Shown here: one piece after another, positions 3,181 to 39,085 of the stretch | Layout of the letters: each line of letters begins with the position of its first letter | Position numbering within the stretch: the stretch's first letter is position 1 | NCBI GenBank assembly: GCA_015067885.1 | Contig: SVLO01000018.1 | Span: 1 to 43,663 of the forward strand | Length of the DNA: 43,663 nt | Direction: 5' to 3' | Source: Oscillospiraceae bacterium | Lineage (GTDB): Bacteria > Bacillota > Clostridia > Oscillospirales > Oscillospiraceae | Notes under the pieces: model-generated | The model's database searches: none | What the model was told of the DNA's origin: nothing | Seen by the model: the letters and a program-made list of their open reading frames with translations, nothing else | Program-made: the position numbers and the translations under genes

Positions 3181-4707
3181 ATGTCTGGAGAAAATTTGCA
3201 ACACCTGATTGCCATGATCATCTACATGGCGGCCGTAATCGGTATTGGCATCTTCTATGCCAAGCGTGCCAACAAGAACGCGGACGCCTATTTCCTGGGT
3301 GGCCGCTCTTTGGGTCCCTGGGTGGCCGCCTTCAGTGCCGAGGCGTCGGATATGTCCGGTTGGCTGCTGATGGGTCTGCCCGGTCTGGCCTACTGGTCCG
3401 GTCTTGCCGATGCCGGCTGGACCGCCATCGGTCTGTTCGTGGGTACCTATTTCAACTGGCTGATCGTGTCCCGCCGTCTGCGCCGCTACACCGAAACGGT
3501 GGACGCCATCACCATCCCCGGTTTCCTGTCCAAGCGTTTCCACGAGAAGTCCAAGCTGATTTTGCTGGTATCCTCCCTGTTCATCGTCATCTTCTTCACC
3601 GTCTATGCCGGCCAGTGCCTGTCCGCCTGCGGCAAGCTGTTTGAAAACCTGTTCGGGCTGGACTACAAGGTCATGATGATTATCGCTGCCATCTTCGTGC
3701 TGCTGTACACCTTCCTGGGCGGTTTCCTGGCGGAGAGTGCATCCGACTTCATGCAGGCCGTGGTCATGGTGATCGCCCTTGTGGCCATCCTGTCCCTGGC
3801 CACCATCAGCGCCGGCGGCATCGGTGCCGTCATCGAAAACGCCAAGAGCTACGACGGTTTCCTGTCCCTGGTCCGCACCTCCACCCCCTCTACCGAGGTG
3901 GCCAATACCTTCGGCGACGGCCAGCCCTTCAAGTTCATGTCCATTCTGTCCGCCCTGGCCTGGGGCCTTGGCTACTTCGGTATGCCCCAGGTGCTGCTGC
4001 GCTTTATGGGTATCCGCTCTGAGAAGGAGCTGACCCGCTCCCGCCGTGTGGCTTGCATTTGGCTGTTCATCGCCATGGGCGCTGCCGTGCTGATCGGTAT
4101 CGTGGGCCGCAGTGTGGCCGGTCTGGAGTACACCTCCAACGCCGCCGCCGAGAACATCTTTATCGACACCGCCACCGCCTTCCTGCCCCCCGTCCTGGCC
4201 GGTTTTGCCTGCGCGGGTATTCTGGCGGCCTCCATCAGCTCTTCTGACTCTTACCTGCTGATTTCCACCTCCGCCATTGCCGAGAACGTGTATCGCGGTA
4301 TGCTGAAGAAGAACGCCAGCGAGAAGCAGGTCATGTGGGTCAGCCGCATCGCCATGGCTATCATCACCATCATCGCCATGGTCATCGCCTGGGATAAGGA
4401 CAGCACCATCTTCGGTATCACCTCCTTCGCCTGGGCCGGCTTCGGCGCCGCATTTGGTCCCGCCATCCTGTTCTCCCTGTTCTGGAAGCGCACCACCCGC
4501 TGGGGCGCTTTGGCCGGTATCGTGTCCGGCGGTGTGATGGTCTTCGTGTGGAAGCTGGCCATCAAGCCCATGGGCGGTGTATTCGCCGTCTACGAGCTGC
4601 TGCCCGCCTTCATCATCGCCGCCATCGCCATCGTGGTGGTCTCTTTGGCCACCCCCGCCCCCGAGCAGAGCGTTCTGGACGAGTTCAAGCAGGCCCGCGG
4701 CAAGTAA
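3181..4707 (+). CDS. putP: Sodium/proline symporter (SSS family)
   Basis: Membrane carrier of 508 residues that imports proline with sodium. About 13 transmembrane helices are visible. The PutP signature SAEASDMSGWLLMGLPGLAY lies near residues 45-65, and the sodium-site helix with ISSSDSYLLISTSAIAEN lies near 350-370. Both match PutP rather than the pantothenate or glucose branches. The ATG at 3181 has AAAGGAGAG at good spacing; an upstream in-frame start at 3043 would run through the promoter and is rejected. It is a single-gene unit with its own promoter and a strong terminator at 4722-4753. The substrate is inferred from similarity to PutP. Confidence 0.92.
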   Translation: MSGENLQHLIAMIIYMAAVIGIGIFYAKRANKNADAYFLGGRSLGPWVAAFSAEASDMSGWLLMGLPGLAYWSGLADAGWTAIGLFVGTYFNWLIVSRRLRRYTETVDAITIPGFLSKRFHEKSKLILLVSSLFIVIFFTVYAGQCLSACGKLFENLFGLDYKVMMIIAAIFVLLYTFLGGFLAESASDFMQAVVMVIALVAILSLATISAGGIGAVIENAKSYDGFLSLVRTSTPSTEVANTFGDGQPFKFMSILSALAWGLGYFGMPQVLLRFMGIRSEKELTRSRRVACIWLFIAMGAAVLIGIVGRSVAGLEYTSNAAAENIFIDTATAFLPPVLAGFACAGILAASISSSDSYLLISTSAIAENVYRGMLKKNASEKQVMWVSRIAMAIITIIAMVIAWDKDSTIFGITSFAWAGFGAAFGPAILFSLFWKRTTRWGALAGIVSGGVMVFVWKLAIKPMGGVFAVYELLPAFIIAAIAIVVVSLATPAPEQSVLDEFKQARGK

Positions 4708-4721
4708 TTTTCACAACGACT

Positions 4722-4753
4722 GCGGCGGCTCCCTATGGGAGCCGCCGCTTTTT
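4722..4753 (+). terminator. putP terminator
   Basis: Perfect 12-bp GC-rich stem (GCGGCGGCTCCC / GGGAGCCGCCGC) with a TAT loop, followed by TTTTT. It starts 14 bases past the putP stop. Confidence 0.92.
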
Positions 4754-4764
4754 GCGTATATTCC

Positions 4765-4793
4765 TTGCATTTTTCAAAAAAGTATGCTATACT
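4765..4793 (+). promoter_or_regulatory. Promoter of the CNNM/CBS gene
   Basis: TTGCAT (4765-4770), 17 bases, TATACT (4788-4793). A palindrome at 4800-4820 lies right where transcription would begin. Confidence 0.72.
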
Positions 4794-4799
4794 ACGCAA

Positions 4800-4820
4800 T
4801 TAAGTACAGATCGTACTTAA
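4800..4820. promoter_or_regulatory. Candidate operator over the start of transcription
   Basis: TTAAGTAC (4800-4807), 5-base centre, GTACTTAA (4813-4820): perfect 8-bp arms starting 6 bases after the -10. A repressor bound here would block the promoter. No regulator gene is adjacent. Confidence 0.45.
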
Positions 4821-4853
4821 ATATAATATAGAAAGCAGAGTTGATTCGTCCAA

Positions 4854-6107
4854 ATGGACCCTACCAGTACAGGAATGATAGTAGCTTTAGTGCTCCTCAT
4901 CGCCATGTCGGCCTACTTCTCCGCCACCGAGACCGCCTTTACCTCCCTCAACCGCATCAGGCTGAAGACCAAGGCCGATGACGGCGACCGGAAGGCCAAG
5001 CGCACCCTCGCTTTGGCCGAGCAGTACGACAAACTGCTGTCCACCATCCTTATCGGCAACAACATCGTCAACATATCCGCCACCACCATCGCCACCGTAC
5101 TGTTCACCAAGCTTTTCCGCGAAAACGGCCCCGCCATTTCCACCGTGGTGCTGACCGTAGCCATTCTGATTTTTGGTGAGATCTCGCCCAAGAGTCTGGC
5201 CAAGGAGTACCCGGAGCGGTGGGCCCTGTTCGCCACCCCCTTGCTGTCCCTGCTTACCATTATTTTGGCCCCCCTCAACTTCCTGTTCGGCCTGTGGCGC
5301 AAGCTGCTTGGCCTGCTGTTCCACGCCAACGAAGAGGACGTCATTACCGAGGAAGAGCTGGTGGGCATGGTGGAGCAGGCTGAGACCGAGGGCGGCCTGG
5401 ACGAGCATGAGAGTGAGTTGATCCGTGCTGCCATCGAGTTCAACGATTTGGAAGTGTCCGAGATCCTCACCCCCCGGGTGGACCTGGTGGCAGTGGAGGA
5501 GAATACCGCGCCGGACGAGATCGCCCGTCTGCTGACCGAAAGCGGCTACTCCCGCCTGCCTATTTATAAGGAGAGCATCGATAATATCATCGGTGTGGTC
5601 CACGAAAAGGACTTCTATGCCGCCCGCTACCGGGGCTTCAAATCCTTGGCTGCCATCACCGGACCCGTGCTTTACACCACCGGCAGTACCAAAATTTCCG
5701 ACCTGCTGCGCATCCTGCAGAAGAACAAGGCCCACATGGCGGTCGTCGTGGATGAGTACGGCGGCACCGAGGGTATCGTTACCCTGGAGGATATTTTGGA
5801 GGAGCTGGTTGGCGAAATTTGGGACGAACACGACGAGGTTGTGGAGTCCTTCCGCAAGGAAGAGGATGGCAGCTACATCATCCAGTGCAGCGCAAGCCTT
5901 GACGACCTGTACGATCTGTTCTCCGTCAAGGGGGACCCCGACGCCAGCACCATTTCTGGCTGGGTCGTGGACCAGTTGGGCCGCGTACCCGAACAGGGCG
6001 ATATGTTCCAGGCCGAGGGGCTGGAGGTCACCGTCACCCAGGTGGAGCAGCGCCGTGTCATGGAGATCAAGGTCAGCGTCCTGCCCGAGGAAACCGAAGA
6101 AGAATAA
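4854..6107 (+). CDS. Hemolysin C-type CNNM transporter with CBS pair (CorC/YfjD family)
   Basis: Membrane protein of 417 residues with the classic layout: a CNNM/DUF21 transmembrane domain (about 1-190; it includes [33 protein letters not shown] and [15 protein letters not shown]), a CBS pair (about 205-325; MTPR-like [10 protein letters not shown], then [28 protein letters not shown]), and a C-terminal CorC_HlyC domain (about 345-410; [24 protein letters not shown]). Relatives export or homeostatically control magnesium or cobalt, and the CBS pair senses ATP-Mg. The old hemolysin label is historical. The ribosome binding site is weak (GAAAGCAGAG well upstream), so the ATG at 4854 is the likeliest start but not certain. 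It is a single-gene unit. Confidence 0.9.
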
Positions 6108-20403: not shown

Positions 20404-22770
20404 TTATGCAAATACCGTTCGCGCGATGTCCACGCCGGCCTTGGCGTCCCGGGCGTAGAAGTCCGCGCCGATTTGGGCGGCGTAATCCGCCGTCAGCACC
20501 GCGCCGCCGGCCATGATTTTACAGGGCAGGTTTTCCTTGCGCAGGAGCTTGATGGTGTCCTCCATGGCGGGCAGGGTGGTGGTCATCAGGGCGGACAGAC
20601 CCACAAGGGCGGCGCCGTGCTTACGGACGGCGGCCACGACCTCCTCCGGAGCCACGTCCTTGCCCAGGTCGATGACGGTGCAGCCGTAGTTTTCCAGCAG
20701 CACCTTGAGAATGTTCTTGCCGATGTCGTGGATGTCCCCCTTGACGGTGGCGACCACTACCACGTTGCTTTGGTCGGGGGTCTGCCCGGCGGCGGACAGA
20801 TGGGCGCGCAGCACCTCGAAAGCGGCCTGGGCCGCACCGGCGGACTGGATGAGCTGGGGCAGGAACTGCCGCCCGGCCTCGAAGTCCGCACCCACCGCAT
20901 CCAGGGCGGGGATGAGGGTGCCGTTCACGATGTCCATAGGGGAAACCCCCTGGGACAGAAGGGTTTGCGCCGCGGGGCCGGCCTCGCTCTTCAGGCCCAG
21001 ACGCACCACCTCGTCCAGGGTACGCTGACCACCCTCGGCCACCGGGGCGGCGGGGGCGGTCTGGCCGCCGTAGGCGGCGATGTACTCCCGGGCCTCGGTG
21101 TCGATGTTCATCAGCAGGTGGTAGGACCGCACCGCCGCCATCATGGGCGCGGCGTTGGGGTTGATGATGGGCAGGTCCAGGCCGTACACCATGGCCATGG
21201 TGAGGAAATTTTGATTGACCTGGGGCCGCAGGGGCAGACCGAAGGAGATGTTGGACACGCCAAGGGCGGTCTTGACCCCCAGTTCCTGCTTCACAAGCCG
21301 AAGGGCCTGCAGGGTCTCGGCGGCGCACTCCTGCTGGGCGGAGGCGGTCAGGGTCAGGCAGTCGATGATGATGTCCCGGCGGGGGATGCCGTGGGACTCG
21401 GCGGCGGCCACGATGCGCCGGGCGATGTCCAGCCGCTGCTGCGCCGTTTGGGGGATGCCCGATTTGTCAAGGGTCAGGCCCACCACCGCCGCGCCGTACT
21501 TCTTCACAATGGGCAGCAGGGCGGTGAGGGACTCCTGGTCCCCATTGACCGAGTTGACGATGGCCTTGCCGCAGCAGAGCCGCAGAGCCTGTTCCACCAC
21601 GGCGGGGTCGGTGGAGTCGATCTGCAGGGGGGCGTCGGTGACGGCCTGCACCGCCTTCACCGTGCGGCACATCATGTCCGCCTCGTCCACTCCGGGCAGA
21701 CCCACGTTCACGTCAAGGATATCCGCCCCGGCCTCGGTCTGTTCCAAAGCCTGGCGCACCATGAAGTCCACGTCCTGCCGCAGCAGGGCCTCTTTCATCA
21801 GCTTTTTGCCCGTGGGGTTGATGCGCTCGCCAATGACCCGCACCCGGTCAATGGGTACCACCCGGGTACCGCTGCACACGGCGGGGGGGACGGGGGCGGC
21901 GTTTGCTTTGACGGTGCGGCCGGACAGGGCGGTGTTCAGCAGCGCGATGTACTCCGGTGTGGTGCCGCAGCAGCCGCCCAGCAGCTTCACGCCCAACTCG
22001 GTGGCAGGGGCCAAAGCCTCGGCAAACTGGGCCGGGGTGATGTCATAGCCGCCGCCGGCGGGGTCGGGCAGACCGGCGTTGGGCTTCAGAATGAGGGGGA
22101 GAGAGGTCCAGCGGGCCAGTTCCTCGACGATGGGCAGAAGCTGGGCGGGACCGAGAGAGCAGTTCACGCCCATGGCGGCGGCGCCCAAGCCCTCCAAAGT
22201 CAAAGCGACCGAAGCGGGGGGACAGCCCAAAAAGGTGCGGCCCCGCTCCTCAAAGGTCATGCTGACCATCACGGGCAGGTCGCACACCTCTTTGGCGGCG
22301 ATCAGGGCGGCCCGGGCCTCCTGCAGGTCGGCCATGGTTTCGATGAAAATCAAATCCACCCCGGCCTCCACGCCGCAGCGGACGGTTTCCTTGAAGATAT
22401 CCACCGCCTGCTCAAAGGGCAGGATGCCGGTGGGTTCCAAAAGCTGGCCGATGGGGCCGATGTCCAGGGCCACCAGCGCCCGGTCCCCGGCGGCGCGCCG
22501 GGCCACGGCCACGGAGGCGGGGACCACGTCGGCAACCGTCGCGCCCATATTGGCCAGCTTCAACCGATTGGCGCCGAAGGTGTTGGCGCTGATGATCCGC
22601 GAGCCGGCATCCACGTAGGCGCGGTGAATGTCCTCCAACCAGTCGGGGTGTTCCAGGGCCGCCAGCTCCGGGTGCTGACCGGCCACAAGACCCTTGGCCT
22701 GCAGCATGGTACCCATGCCGCCGTCCAGCAGGACGGGGGTATTGGAGGTGAGAAGGGTGTTAAAATCCAC
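20404..22770 (-). CDS. metH: Cobalamin-dependent methionine synthase, three catalytic modules (no activation domain)
   Basis: 788 residues that transfer a methyl group from methyltetrahydrofolate through cobalamin to homocysteine. Modules in order: homocysteine/zinc domain (about 1-290; LLDGGMGTMLQAKG, GVNCSLGP, and the Cys pair in LLGGCCGTTPEYI), pterin-binding domain (about 305-560; ERINPTGKKLMKEAL, DVNVGLPGVDE), and cobalamin-binding cap and domain (about 575-788; DIHDIGKNI with the axial His). The C-terminal reactivation domain is absent and is encoded by the gene just upstream. I start at the GTG at 22770 (AGGTGG before it). It overlaps that gene's end by 11 bases, so the two are coupled. 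The frame upstream of 22770 lies inside the neighbour. Confidence 0.93.
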   Translation of the reverse strand: MDFNTLLTSNTPVLLDGGMGTMLQAKGLVAGQHPELAALEHPDWLEDIHRAYVDAGSRIISANTFGANRLKLANMGATVADVVPASVAVARRAAGDRALVALDIGPIGQLLEPTGILPFEQAVDIFKETVRCGVEAGVDLIFIETMADLQEARAALIAAKEVCDLPVMVSMTFEERGRTFLGCPPASVALTLEGLGAAAMGVNCSLGPAQLLPIVEELARWTSLPLILKPNAGLPDPAGGGYDITPAQFAEALAPATELGVKLLGGCCGTTPEYIALLNTALSGRTVKANAAPVPPAVCSGTRVVPIDRVRVIGERINPTGKKLMKEALLRQDVDFMVRQALEQTEAGADILDVNVGLPGVDEADMMCRTVKAVQAVTDAPLQIDSTDPAVVEQALRLCCGKAIVNSVNGDQESLTALLPIVKKYGAAVVGLTLDKSGIPQTAQQRLDIARRIVAAAESHGIPRRDIIIDCLTLTASAQQECAAETLQALRLVKQELGVKTALGVSNISFGLPLRPQVNQNFLTMAMVYGLDLPIINPNAAPMMAAVRSYHLLMNIDTEAREYIAAYGGQTAPAAPVAEGGQRTLDEVVRLGLKSEAGPAAQTLLSQGVSPMDIVNGTLIPALDAVGADFEAGRQFLPQLIQSAGAAQAAFEVLRAHLSAAGQTPDQSNVVVVATVKGDIHDIGKNILKVLLENYGCTVIDLGKDVAPEEVVAAVRKHGAALVGLSALMTTTLPAMEDTIKLLRKENLPCKIMAGGAVLTADYAAQIGADFYARDAKAGVDIARTVFA

Positions 22771-23440
22771 AGTGACCACCTGTCTTTCGCAGTTGGCAGT
22801 TGCCCATGTTGGGACAGAGGGGACAACTGCGCTTATGTGTGGGGATGGGGGAGTCGGCAAGGCCCAAAATGGCGGTGACCGACTTGCGGGGGGTCAGAAT
22901 ACAGCTATCCGTGACGGACAGGCCCATGAGCCGATGGGCGTCCAGCAGCACCAGCAGGGAACCCTGCACCCCCAGGGGCAGGTCGCCGTAGCCGGGGCTG
23001 TACCGATAGGGGGAGTGCAGACCGGGGTGTTGGGCGTGGACGTACCCCTCAATGTGGTCGCAAAGCTGCTCCACCAGCGCCCCGGCGGCGCAGTCCAAAG
23101 CCAGCGCCCGGGCCATATCCGTGTACTGGGTGCGACGGATCAGGGTGTCTGACTCCGCGCCCAAAGTGGCGCAGAACACCGCCGCCTTTTGGCAGCCGTC
23201 CAAATGCTGTTTCAAATCCTGCCCGCCCAGCAACAGGCCGCCGTCCAGCCGCACGCCGTCCGGCTCAAAGGACAGGTCGAAGATATGTCCGCACCAGCGG
23301 GGGACGGCAATGGACAGCAGTTGTTCGGCACAATCCGCGGCAAGGGTGCGGGTGACCTCGTCCGCCTGCTCCGGCGGCATGCCCATATAGCGCAGGATCT
23401 CCTCCGTGTCCGGGGCGGACAGGGTAAACTCCGCCGTCAT
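22760..23440 (-). CDS. Methionine synthase B12 reactivation domain protein
   Basis: 226 residues that correspond to the C-terminal activation domain of full-length MetH, which binds AdoMet and remethylates oxidised cobalamin. The family AdoMet motif appears as YRYSPGYGDLPLG. Near the C-terminus a cysteine cluster (SCPLCPNMGNCQLRK) is present, as I recall from stand-alone Clostridia versions. The ATG at 23440 shares bases with the metF stop (TGATG). The 3' end overlaps metH by 11 bases. The overlap chain suggests metF, activator and synthase are made in fixed ratio from one mRNA. This gene is often annotated simply as a vitamin B12-dependent methionine synthase activation domain protein. Confidence 0.9.
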   Translation of the reverse strand: MTAEFTLSAPDTEEILRYMGMPPEQADEVTRTLAADCAEQLLSIAVPRWCGHIFDLSFEPDGVRLDGGLLLGGQDLKQHLDGCQKAAVFCATLGAESDTLIRRTQYTDMARALALDCAAGALVEQLCDHIEGYVHAQHPGLHSPYRYSPGYGDLPLGVQGSLLVLLDAHRLMGLSVTDSCILTPRKSVTAILGLADSPIPTHKRSCPLCPNMGNCQLRKTGGHCGF

Positions 23441-35041: not shown

Positions 35042-36235
35042 TTACTCGGTGGTGTAGTTGTCGAAGTAGCCCTGGATATAGACGAAGGGGGTACCCTTGT
35101 CGCCGGAGCCGGAGGTCAGGTCGCACAGAGAGCCGATCAGGTCGGTCAGGCGGCGGGGGGTGGTACCCTCGGACACCATCTGACCCACCAGGTTGTCGTC
35201 CTTCTGCTGGATCTTCTCCTTGATGGCCTGCTTCAGCGCCTCGCCGGACAGGGCGGCAAAGTCGTTGTCGGCCAAATACTTCAGCTTCAACTCGTTGGGG
35301 GTGCCTTCCAAACCGGCGGTGTAGGCGGGGGAGACCACGGGGTCGGCCAGCTCCCAAATCTTGCCCACGGGGTCCTTGAAGGCGCCGTCGCCGTAGACCA
35401 TGACCTCCACACACTTGCCGGTGGCGGCCAGCAGACGCTTTTGAATGTCCTCCACCAGGTCCTGGCAGTCACGGGGGAACAGCTTGACCTGATCCTCAGT
35501 GGCTTTGTTGGAACCCAGCAGGCCGTACTTGGCGTTCCAGCCGCTGTCCCCGATGGGGGAATTCATGATCTCGTCCATGCCGAAGACGATCTCGGCACCG
35601 GCGGCACGCAGCAGACGCTTGGTGCGCTCACGGGTGTGGATGTCGCAGTTGAGGACGTTCTTGGTGTAGTTCAGCACGGCACGGGGGTCGTTGGCGAAGA
35701 TGATCTCCACCTCGGCGCCGCAGTCCCGGATGAGCTGCTCGTAATACTCCACGTAGTCCACGCCGGTGAAGGGGTGCTTTTCGTAGCCGAACAGCTCACG
35801 GTAGCGCTTCAGGTCCAGCACGTCGCGGTAGGGGTCCACGCCGGCGGCATCCATAGCGTCCAGGCTGATGAGATGGTTGCCCACCTCGTCAGAGGGGTAG
35901 GACAGCATCAGCACGACCTTCTTACAACCCATGGCGATGCCGCGCAGGCAGATGGAGAAGCGGTTGCGGCTGAGGATGGGGAAGATGACACCCACCGTTT
36001 CGCCGCCGAATTTGGCGCGCACGTCGGCGGCAATGTCGTCCACGCTGACGTAGTTGCCCTGCACCCGGGCCACGATGGACTCGGTAACGGCGACCACGTC
36101 GCGGTCACGAATGGCAAAGCCGTCATCGGCGGCAGCCTCCAGCACGCAGTTGGTGACGATCTGGGCCAGATCATCGCCGGCGCGGATAATGGGGGCGCGA
36201 ACACCGCGGGAAACAGTACCAATCATACGGCTCAT
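35042..36235 (-). CDS. CofE-like F420-0:gamma-glutamyl ligase family protein
   Basis: 397 residues that resemble the coenzyme F420-0:L-glutamate ligase fold. Seen: the N-terminal RAPIIRAGDDLAQIV (about 12-26), DVVAVTESIVARVQGNYV (about 45-62), ILSRNRFSICLRGIAMGCKKVVLMLSYPSDEVGN (central), and a C-terminal GDGAFKDPVGKIWELADPVVSPAYTAGLEG. True CofE adds glutamates to F420-0 with GTP. No other F420 gene is in the window, and this long Firmicute form may act on another acceptor. AAGGAG precedes the ATG at 36235; an upstream in-frame start at 36256 has no site. It is a single gene with its own promoter. Substrate unknown. Confidence 0.72.
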   Translation of the reverse strand: MSRMIGTVSRGVRAPIIRAGDDLAQIVTNCVLEAAADDGFAIRDRDVVAVTESIVARVQGNYVSVDDIAADVRAKFGGETVGVIFPILSRNRFSICLRGIAMGCKKVVLMLSYPSDEVGNHLISLDAMDAAGVDPYRDVLDLKRYRELFGYEKHPFTGVDYVEYYEQLIRDCGAEVEIIFANDPRAVLNYTKNVLNCDIHTRERTKRLLRAAGAEIVFGMDEIMNSPIGDSGWNAKYGLLGSNKATEDQVKLFPRDCQDLVEDIQKRLLAATGKCVEVMVYGDGAFKDPVGKIWELADPVVSPAYTAGLEGTPNELKLKYLADNDFAALSGEALKQAIKEKIQQKDDNLVGQMVSEGTTPRRLTDLIGSLCDLTSGSGDKGTPFVYIQGYFDNYTTE

Positions 36236-36307
36236 AACGGAACAACTCCTTGTCAACTCGTCCCTTGGGACGGCTGAAAAATTCGGGGAAAATCAATCCC
36301 ACACGCC

Positions 36308-36372: not shown

Positions 36373-39003
36373 TTATTCTGTTTTTATGCGGGCGGTATCC
36401 CCAAGGCGGGAGGAATGGGCATTTTGACCATTGCGCCGGGCCAAAATGCGGCTGATCTCCACCCGGGTCTGTTCCATCTCCTCCCGGAAGACCCGGGCGG
36501 AGATGCGCAGGGCGCCGTGGCCGAGGATGATGAGCTGTTCCAGGGCGTCGGAGGTTGCCACACGGACCCGGTGGTCACGGCTGAGGTCGTAGGTGGCCTT
36601 TTCAATGTAGGCATCGGCGGTCTGGGCCTCTTTGGTGTAGACCACGCTGATGCCGTTGATTTTCTCCACGGAGCCGGGATTGCCCTTGACCTTGTAGGCA
36701 TCGAAGACCAAAATCACTTCGCATTGTTTGGCACCCCGGTAGTCCGCCAGCAGGTCGCACAGCACCACCCGGGCGGCGGCAACGTCCTGCCGGGCCAATC
36801 GGTTCAGGTCCTCCCAGGCGAAGATGATGTTGTAGCCGTCCACTAGCAGGTACTCCGGACCGGCCTTTTGGGGTGCGAAGGTGTAGTCCTTATCCGCCAG
36901 GTTGGTCCGGGCGGGCTTTTTGACCGGCTCAAAGGACTTGGTTTCCACCTTGCCGTAGGTGCGCTCGAAAATCTGCATGAGCTGCTTGTCCTGCTCCAAA
37001 CTGCCGGTGTAGCGGTGGGTGCTGCCGCCCGCAGGGGCAGCGGGGGTGTCGTCCGCCTGGCCGGGCTTGGTCAGGGGGCTTTCCGTGTGGGCGTGGTCGG
37101 CCACCTGATCCCATGGAATGACCACCCCGGCGCCGTGGGAGCAGAACACGGACTCGGCGGGGTTGGCGGTGTCCCGCAGGGGATCGTAGCCGGTCTGCTC
37201 CACCATCGCCTGTTGGTCGGCACAGGGGCGATAGCCTGCCGGCTGGCAGCTCAGCCGGCCCATACCCCGGGTGTAGGCGGTGACCTGCCGGGCGTAGTCC
37301 TGCAGTCCCGCTACGGGCGCCTGTCCGGTCAGACAGGTCAGCTCGTCCCCGGTCTGGGGCGGGTCGAAGTCGCCGCCGGCGGTTTGAATGTCGGTCATGG
37401 CCCGGCCCACACAGTCGGCGGGGACCTCGAGGCGGAAGGAGTACCACGGCTCCAGCAGCACGCTCTCGGCCTGCATCAGACCGTGGCGCACCGCCCGGTA
37501 GGTGGCCTGACGGAAGTCGCCGCCCTCGGTGTGCTTGTTGTGGGCGCGGCCTGCGATGAGGGTGATCTTCATATCGGTAACGGGCGCGCCGGTAAGGACG
37601 CCGGCGTGTTCCTTTTCGCCCAAATGGGTCAAAATCAAACGCTGCCAGTTCAGCTCCAGGGCGTCGGTGGAGCAGGCGGAGTCAAACACAAGACCGCTGC
37701 CCGGCTCCCCCGGCTCCAGCAGCAGGCGTACCTCGGCGTAGTGGCGCAGAGGTTCAAAATGCCCGATGCCCTCCACGGAATTGGCGATGGTTTCCTTATA
37801 TAGAATACTGCCCGGGCCGAAGGATACCTCCATGCCGAACCGCTGAGCGATGACGCGGCTAAGCACTTCAAGCTGTACCTGACCCATGAGCTGAATGTGG
37901 ACCTGCCGCAGCAGTTGGTTCCAAACGATGTGCAGTTGGGGGTCCTCCTCCTCCAGTTGGGCCAGCTTGCCCATGGACACGTGGGGGTCGCACCCGGCGG
38001 GCAGAATGAGCTGACAGGTCAGCACCGGCTCCAGGATGGGCAGCAGGGCGTTTCCCTCCGCCCCAAGGCCCTGGCCGGGCTTGGTGTGGGTCAGGCCGGT
38101 GACGGCGCACACCGCCCCCGCCTCTACCGTGTCGACGGCGGAGAATTTGGCGCCGGAATAGAGCCTTAATTGGTCGGCCTTTTCTTCCCAGCGGTCATCG
38201 CCCGCGCCGCCGGACAGGGGCATTTTGGCCCGGAGGGTGCCGCCGGTGACCTTCAGCCAGGTCAGGCGGTTGCCCTGTCCGTCCCGGGTGATTTTGAACA
38301 CCCGGGCGGCAAAGTCCGCCCCGCGCTCCGGTCGGGGAGCAAAGCGGGTCAGGGCGTCCAGCAGCTCGTCCACGCCGTCCAGCTTCAGGGCAGAGCCGAA
38401 CAGGCAGGGAAACAGCCTGCGCCGGGACACCAAGTTCCGTAAGGTTTCCTCGGTCAATGTGCCGGTAGACAAAAACTTGTCCAAGGCGCCTTCGTCGCAG
38501 ACAGCGGCCTGCTCGCAGCGCTGGTCGGCCGGGGCGGAGAAGTCCACGCAGCCCTCGTCCAGTTGGGTGCGCAACTGCTCCATCAGCGGTTGCTGACGGG
38601 CGGGGGCCAAATCCATCTTGTTGATAAAGATCAGGGTGGGTACGTCGTACCGCCGCAGCAGGGACCACAGGGTGCGGGTGTGGCCCTGGACTCCGTCGGT
38701 GCCGCTGATGACCAGCACGGCGCAGTCCAGCACCTGCAGGGCGCGCTCCGTTTCCGTGGAAAAGTCCACGTGGCCGGGCGTATCCAGCAGGGTGAGGTTT
38801 ACCCCGGGCAGGGGGAGCAGCGCCTGCTTGGAAAAGATGGTGATGCCCCGCTGACGTTCGATATGGTCGGTGTCCAAAAAGGCGTCCCCGTGGTCCACCC
38901 GGCCCAGCTTTTTGATGGCGCCGCCACGGTAGAGCATGGCCTCGGACAGGGTGGTTTTGCCCGCGTCCACGTGGGCCAGCATACCAACTACCAATTGCCG
39001 CAA
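36373..39003 (-). CDS. TetM-like translational GTPase fused to a Rae1/YacP NYN ribonuclease
   Basis: 876 residues. Residues about 1-640 are a ribosomal-protection-type GTPase (EF-G-like): AHVDAGKTTLSE (G1), RQRGITI, DTPGHVDF (G3), NKMD (G4), GSAL (G5), then domains II-V. The TetM loop YSPVSTPADFR, as I recall it, is replaced by HNKHTEGGDFR. After a linker (about 645-715), residues about 717-860 match YacP/Rae1, the ribosome-dependent mRNA endonuclease: LLVDGYNIIFAW, VILVFDAYKVKG, VVYTKEAQTADAYIEKA, VRVATSDALEQLIILGHGALRISAR; all acidic active-site positions are kept. I start at TTG (39003), 8 bases after GGGAGG; a GTG at 39012 overlaps that site. It is probably not a resistance gene. Confidence 0.88.
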   Translation of the reverse strand: MRQLVVGMLAHVDAGKTTLSEAMLYRGGAIKKLGRVDHGDAFLDTDHIERQRGITIFSKQALLPLPGVNLTLLDTPGHVDFSTETERALQVLDCAVLVISGTDGVQGHTRTLWSLLRRYDVPTLIFINKMDLAPARQQPLMEQLRTQLDEGCVDFSAPADQRCEQAAVCDEGALDKFLSTGTLTEETLRNLVSRRRLFPCLFGSALKLDGVDELLDALTRFAPRPERGADFAARVFKITRDGQGNRLTWLKVTGGTLRAKMPLSGGAGDDRWEEKADQLRLYSGAKFSAVDTVEAGAVCAVTGLTHTKPGQGLGAEGNALLPILEPVLTCQLILPAGCDPHVSMGKLAQLEEEDPQLHIVWNQLLRQVHIQLMGQVQLEVLSRVIAQRFGMEVSFGPGSILYKETIANSVEGIGHFEPLRHYAEVRLLLEPGEPGSGLVFDSACSTDALELNWQRLILTHLGEKEHAGVLTGAPVTDMKITLIAGRAHNKHTEGGDFRQATYRAVRHGLMQAESVLLEPWYSFRLEVPADCVGRAMTDIQTAGGDFDPPQTGDELTCLTGQAPVAGLQDYARQVTAYTRGMGRLSCQPAGYRPCADQQAMVEQTGYDPLRDTANPAESVFCSHGAGVVIPWDQVADHAHTESPLTKPGQADDTPAAPAGGSTHRYTGSLEQDKQLMQIFERTYGKVETKSFEPVKKPARTNLADKDYTFAPQKAGPEYLLVDGYNIIFAWEDLNRLARQDVAAARVVLCDLLADYRGAKQCEVILVFDAYKVKGNPGSVEKINGISVVYTKEAQTADAYIEKATYDLSRDHRVRVATSDALEQLIILGHGALRISARVFREEMEQTRVEISRILARRNGQNAHSSRLGDTARIKTE

Positions 39004-39034
39004 GGTTATCACCTCCCGCTTTCAAAGATACCAT

Positions 39035-39052: not shown

Positions 39053-39085
39053 CGGGCCGAACAGAAAAAATATTTGTTCGACCCG
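39053..39085. promoter_or_regulatory. 11-bp inverted repeat over the -35 of the GTPase-nuclease gene
   Basis: CGGGCCGAACA (39053-39063) pairs with TGTTCGACCCG (39075-39085), one G-T mismatch, around an A/T-rich 11-base centre. Its place suggests an operator; it also lies in the region divergent to the DUF1836 gene, whose protein has a helix-turn-helix. Confidence 0.42.

Follow-up and report, generated by a model that had tools for sequence, protein, structure and literature searches.

The contig SVLO01000018.1 of an Oscillospiraceae bacterium (assembly GCA_015067885.1) raises the question of what a bacterium does with a ribosomal GTPase and an mRNA nuclease that are joined in a single chain. 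The window, by which we mean the whole 43,663-nucleotide stretch that was analysed, carries on its minus strand, at 36373-39003, one intact gene of 876 codons that encodes an EF-G/TetM-type GTPase followed by a C-terminal NYN nuclease of the YacP/Rae1 type. The best explanation, judged from comparative sequence analysis, is that the product is a housekeeping protein in which the only Rae1/YacP nuclease detected in the cell is permanently linked to a dedicated ribosome GTPase.

The fused gene and the free nuclease

The minus-strand frame runs uninterrupted from 36373 to 39012. Its TTG codon at 39003 is preceded by a good Shine-Dalgarno sequence (GGAGGTGAT), and the alternative GTG start at 39012 falls within that same element. 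These features fit the extent given in the initial annotation (36373 to 39003), whose observation of a fused gene we confirm. (Residue numbers below are those of the translation P0001, which starts at the GTG, so that the true number is P0001 minus 3; numbering in our alignment A2 is P0001 minus 1.) The same fused frame was found in all 25 genomes searched within the genus (contig ends cut it in two of these), in 3 of 15 others from the order, and in 128 of 391 genomes of the class; the nearest named relative of the window protein, from an Oscillospiraceae metagenome-assembled genome, is 77% identical. This recurrence across the class places the fusion beyond chance and rules out a frameshift or assembly artefact, and we regard the fused architecture as near certain.

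To the census of the class, 249 of the 391 genomes contributed a YacP match. One fused frame was present in 126 genomes, two fused frames in 1, one stand-alone nuclease in 107 and both forms in 1 (G330), giving totals of 128 genomes with the fused form and 108 with the stand-alone form. Another 13 genomes were assigned to neither class, as their frames, affected by contig ends or splits, were intermediate in length. Four matches below the cut-off were excluded, three of them second matches and one the sole match of a further genome, and one genome counted as stand-alone (G224) probably holds a fused gene split between contigs. Independence of the two forms would predict about 35 genomes with both, versus the one observed, a figure that serves as a guide and not as a test given shared ancestry. 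Seven families contain both states, one of them probably through the assembly split of G224. The initial annotation had suggested checking whether genomes with the fusion lack a separate yacP, and they do, with G330 as the one exception.

The site of the free gene carries a corresponding trace. The order rlmB-yacP-sigH was found in 5 of 8 stand-alone genomes, with 502-564 bases between rlmB and sigH, and G330 has this order as well. Among the 21 fused genomes examined, 8 have sigH immediately after rlmB, the two frames lying -32 to 269 bases apart without an intervening yacP. Unlike yacP of B. subtilis, which is described as co-transcribed with yacO/rlmB (PMC6613710), the fused gene sits at other genome sites, without steady neighbours. 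Because the two forms, G330 apart, are mutually exclusive, and because the rlmB-yacP-sigH site has become rlmB-sigH in those 8 genomes, we conclude with high confidence, as far as gene content and order can tell, that the fusion has replaced free Rae1/yacP.

Domain architecture and the GTPase subfamily

The features of the gene, all on the minus strand, are as follows.

36373..39003, minus strand: whole gene, fused GTPase-NYN protein (open frame, Shine-Dalgarno sequence and TTG start, Pfam domains)
38338..38994, minus strand: G domain (GTP_EFTU) with motifs AHVDAGKTT, RGIT, DTPGH, NKMD and GSALK (Pfam, 168 bits)
37819..38316, minus strand: EF-G domains II and III (weak Pfam matches; alignment of the structure model with EF-G)
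37471..37812, minus strand: EF-G domain IV, which in relatives reaches into the decoding site (Pfam EFG_IV, 63 bits)
37729..37761, minus strand: tip loop I of domain IV, EPLRHYAEV (fused, GTPase-only, other Tet-like and EF-G proteins aligned together)
37510..37548, minus strand: domain IV tip loop III, RAHNKHTEGGDFR (alignments)
37213..37464, minus strand: EF-G domain V (Pfam EFG_C, 63 bits)
37090..37215, minus strand: ordered C-terminal tail of the GTPase, SVFC..G....W..V....H (alignment; in ten-residue blocks, model confidence of about 75-93)
36853..37089, minus strand: flexible linker, about 80 residues long, that includes one short helix (model confidence below 50 at A2 651-669 and 691-713)
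36955..36999, minus strand: linker helix, motif L..IFERTYG or variants (helix in the predicted structure)
36415..36852, minus strand: NYN_YacP (Rae1-type) nuclease domain with acids D725, D771, D800 and D822 (Pfam, 161 bits; Rae1 match)

The nuclease half, whose Pfam score compares with a cut-off of 24.6 bits, matches the solved B. subtilis YacP/Rae1 (5mq8, 5mq9) at E 3e-22. We compared it with Rae1 by sequence, the fold comparison having covered residues 1-631; a model of the nuclease alone, made with no alignment, was poor (mean pLDDT 43) and was not used. D725, D800 and D822 are invariant across 65 aligned fused proteins, and all four acid columns hold D in 143 of 143 distinct fused proteins; the GTPase motif residues are invariant or at least 90% conserved among 59 aligned proteins. 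With the nuclease acids and the GTPase motifs kept throughout, both active sites appear to be under strong constraint. The domain identities put forward in the initial annotation are thus borne out by profile search, including a YacP-type NYN domain at the C terminus, as are its intact GTPase motifs and catalytic acids, and the loss of those acids was not seen in the fused proteins aligned.

The NYN domain shares its four acids and motifs with Rae1/YacP of B. subtilis, and its cutting chemistry is probably the same. Rae1, however, stands alone as a protein of about 170 residues and carries an EKWRR element at its C terminus, whereas here the nuclease is fused, the element has decayed and a GTPase is supplied. 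Counted by aligned columns, the first arginine of this LEK.RR-like element (a pattern common to the free members, with no formal family criterion) is aligned in 27 of 27 free nucleases and in 19 of 143 fused proteins; 63 of the 143 have a gap at that position, and the window protein ends without the element. R166 of B. subtilis lies in the element by alignment, provided that chain and gene numbers agree, and R166P is reported among suppressors that were read as Rae1 loss of function (PMC6613710). Free Rae1 seems to require the element, so that its decay beside a kept active site would fit a GTPase that now does the recruiting, and its decay in most fused proteins suggests that the nuclease depends on the GTPase half.

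On the GTPase side, domains II and III scored 26 and 25 bits, just under the Pfam cut-off of 27, and the predicted structure can be aligned with EF-G from residue 1 as far as about 610 (of the 1-631 compared). The tip loops of domain IV differ from those of EF-G, as in ribosome-bound structures such as 9rtu and 7n2v, and the genome that carries the fused gene also has EF-G-like genes apart from it. Loop I, EPL.HY.EV in the subfamily, is special to it among the rows aligned. The loop III pattern H.KHT.GGDF is present in 23 of 23 GTPase-only rows, all 59 rows of A2 keep the loop III residues H, T, G, G, D, F and R, and a diverged fused protein (L110) reads RHTEGGDFW. The linker had no match to solved structures up to E 10. 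Its strict helix motif occurs in 77 of 143 fused proteins, in none of 27 free nucleases and in none of 31 GTPases without a nuclease, a set that includes duplicates and other Tet-like or EF-G rows; at 77 of 143, it was rejected as a universal mark of fused proteins.

In a tree of 81 GTPases, made by a quick method with a long EF-G outgroup branch and with 20 same-genus fused rows left out beforehand, 48 fused proteins form one clade (SH-aLRT 99) and 23 GTPase-only proteins another (87), and the two together stand apart from nine other Tet-like GTPases (100). The alignments and this tree thus show the GTPase as a subfamily of its own, distinct from the drug-resistance proteins, with the fusion as one clade. 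A tree of NYN domains, which used 54 of the 143 fused rows, has a main clade (99) of 52 fused proteins and 1 free nuclease. The latter, L024 of genome G243, has no adjoining GTPase, its genome also has a GTPase-only member, and it has the look of a fused protein that later split again.

GTPase-only relatives, 640-724 residues long when whole, stop at the SVFC tail or a few residues beyond it, and they occur together with a free YacP in 15 genomes. Among 398 sampled genomes of the phylum, 28 had a match with E no worse than 1e-110; judged by frame length, 23 of these are fused and 5 GTPase-only. In the tail, C596, C623 and H641 (A2 numbering) are invariant in the 59 rows and many GTPase-only proteins terminate near MHC; the tail could bind a metal. 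One GTPase-only member, L263, named TetM/TetW/TetO/TetS, lies at 4010-5929 of the Ligilactobacillus salivarius megaplasmid NZ_CP020859.1, which is typed as mobilizable, between transposase genes. Its loops and tail are slightly changed (VHTVGGDFR, EPLRHYSEV, SVFC tail), and among the matches listed eleven further L. salivarius records resemble it as matches, a resemblance that concerns the match and not the loops.

Around the gene, an inverted repeat at 39053-39085 (11-base arms CGGGTCGAACA and TGTTCGGCCCG, one wobble pair) lies just upstream. When 27 upstream regions of relatives were folded singly, some of them with uncertain start sites, no common hairpin was apparent by eye, and no Rfam family, riboswitch or other leader, reached its gathering threshold in the window. 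A survey of neighbours, with 120 loci given (4 without an anchor) and genes called by longest open reading frame only, found no conserved operon partner, the commonest neighbour family lying near 8 of 116 loci. The next gene downstream (35042-36256, minus strand) belongs to the F420-0:gamma-glutamyl ligase family, unexpected in a clostridial genome. Elsewhere in the window, 20404-22860 (minus strand) encodes a methionine-synthase-like protein that combines homocysteine S-methyltransferase, pterin-binding and B12-binding domains.

Proposed role and its alternatives

EF-G and the Tet proteins place domain IV in the ribosomal A site, the same place as Rae1. Because both cannot occupy it together, the two halves of the fused protein would act in turn or on different sites, and the linker of about 80 residues seems, from its length, long enough for taking turns or for reaching a neighbouring ribosome. 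We consider it reasonably probable that the protein is a chromosomal, GTPase-tethered variant of Rae1 that cuts mRNA on ribosomes, and we have moderate confidence in the following mechanism. The GTPase half in its GTP form would dock at the ribosomal factor site, where the domain IV loops would probe the A site of certain ribosomes, probably those paused or stalled with a free A site. After GTP hydrolysis domain IV would leave, and the linker-held nuclease would move into the vacated A site, or into that of a neighbouring ribosome, and cut the mRNA there, as proposed for Rae1 in B. subtilis. Ribosome recruitment, done by free Rae1 alone, would pass to the GTPase half. GTP gating, A-site cutting and a role in rescue are parts of this account that we infer, and the "GTP-driven, ribosome-targeted mRNA cleaver" of the initial annotation is likewise an inference, because GTPase-only relatives occur in genomes in which no YacP was found.

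Several observations weigh against this account and the replacement on which it builds. The mutual exclusion is partly a matter of shared ancestry. In 13 of the 21 fused genomes BLAST found no sigH within about 1.5 kb downstream of rlmB, and the order rlmB-yacP-sigH does not appear in 3 of the 8 stand-alone genomes, which leaves the scar only partly visible. Two diverged, long-branch fused rows (L110 and L111) group with free nucleases in the NYN tree, possibly through long-branch attraction. Domain IV and Rae1 would compete for one A site, the neighbourhood gives no operon partner that points to rescue, and we found no experiment on the fused protein in the literature searched. Eight genomes, mostly drafts, have a GTPase-only member and no YacP match (in one of them the GTPase is in two pieces), which argues for an independent function of the GTPase. 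Of the 107 genomes with only free YacP, about 91 have no GTPase of the subfamily among the three best candidates scored per genome, and 142 of the 391 class genomes have no YacP match at all. As GTPase-only, YacP-only and YacP-less genomes all exist, neither part needs the other.

In a different explanation one chain does two jobs: the GTPase performs a ribosome task of its own and the nuclease the ordinary task of Rae1, the two being co-localised or co-regulated with no GTP gating. The long, flexible linker and the occurrence of GTPase-only members both with YacP (15 genomes) and without it (8) are what this explanation would lead one to expect, and the free nuclease nested among fused ones in G243 indicates that the parts can separate again. 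It accounts less well for a fusion kept across a wide clade, or for the decay of the Rae1 C-terminal element with the dependence on the GTPase half that this decay suggests, and we judge it unlikely, if worth keeping in mind. Less likely again is that the nuclease matures rRNA or tRNA and the GTPase guides it to the ribosome. This follows an older prediction for the NYN family, quoted in a passage of PMC4342817, and free yacP does often adjoin rlmB, an rRNA methyltransferase gene, and mrnC; but beside rlmB no yacP-like frame was present in any of the 21 fused genomes examined, and Rae1 is described as a translation-dependent mRNA endonuclease.

The fused protein might instead confer tetracycline resistance, with the nuclease adding an RNA-based mechanism as suggested by Atkinson 2015 (in a passage of PMC4342817). 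It does resemble TetM, TetW and TetO: an EF-G-like multi-domain GTPase with intact GTPase motifs and about 30% identity, matched best, among NCBIfam models, by tet_protect for ribosomal protection. The score of the window protein (395 bits) is nevertheless far under the cut-off of 775. Among eight further proteins scored, two Tet-like controls pass (L060 at 832 and L124 at 1001) and one fails (L120 at 526), and the five subfamily members, three GTPase-only and two fused, all score under the cut-off at 387-456. Loops at the tip of domain IV are described as dislodging the drug (PMC4342817). Loop III of L060 is YSPVSTPADFR and that of L124 YSPVSTPSDFR, while the window protein has RAHNKHTEGGDFR instead, so that the replacement of the TetM-type drug-displacing loop noted in the initial annotation holds in the alignments. 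Different tip loops I and III, the extra SVFC tail and a separate clade thus set the fused protein apart from TetM, TetW and TetO. Only 2 of 72,556 plasmid records have one place that covers at least 80% of it, and one of these, a 252 kb plasmid of Agathobacter rectalis, is typed as non-mobilizable. Even with the ribosomal protection name that RefSeq gives a fused protein, and a GTPase-only relative on a mobilizable-typed plasmid, a resistance role is therefore very unlikely against these scores, loops, tree and plasmid counts and an upstream region with neither an Rfam family nor a common hairpin.

Earlier reports and significance

The initial annotation held that the function seems undescribed, but the fusion as such is already in the literature: a short statement in Atkinson 2015 (PMC4342817) describes Tet proteins of ten Clostridiales that carry a YacP-like NYN domain, and raises an RNase-based resistance mechanism and a role as an rRNA RNase. 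The architecture, a Tet-like GTPase followed by NYN, and the host group are the same, and these are very probably the same family as the window protein, a judgement made without the paper's sequence list. Where that statement offers possible resistance, the present analysis finds a subfamily of its own, one clade, replacement of Rae1 and evidence against resistance. Beyond PMC4342817 we found no other literature on the fusion, although Condon 2018, on the distribution of Rae1, may mention it. Within the literature searched, we found no printed account of the GTPase as a distinct subfamily, of the replaced Rae1 and the scar at its former site, of the decayed C-terminal element or of the case against resistance. 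The earlier interpretation thus stands for the domains, motifs, loop, database names and yacP check, and falls short on novelty and GTP-driven cleavage.

The fused protein is real and widespread, and its labels are in part wrong. The initial annotation had anticipated a generic database name, and at least one fused gene, in a human gut isolate, bears a tetracycline-resistance name in RefSeq; resistome counts may for that reason include fused genes. Two unannotated faecal "Bacteriophage sp." records (MT835563.1 and MT835514.1) hold near full-length fused genes of 59% and 47% identity, and may be misfiled bacterial contigs or true carriage.

The account of replacement, built on the mutual exclusivity of the fusion and free yacP and on the scar between rlmB and sigH, is one that others can check at once. 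If the proposed role is true, a translational GTPase and on-ribosome mRNA cleavage are joined in one chain, GTP control of A-site mRNA decay becomes directly testable, and the misreading of such genes as resistance genes would be corrected. More tentatively, and with somewhat less than even expectation, much of Clostridia may have a one-protein system resembling no-go decay, in which a GTPase with its own decoding-site loops would recognise stalled ribosomes and its hydrolysis of GTP would hand the A site to a tethered Rae1, while the relatives that lack the nuclease would represent another, unstudied ribosome factor that is partly filed under tetracycline resistance.
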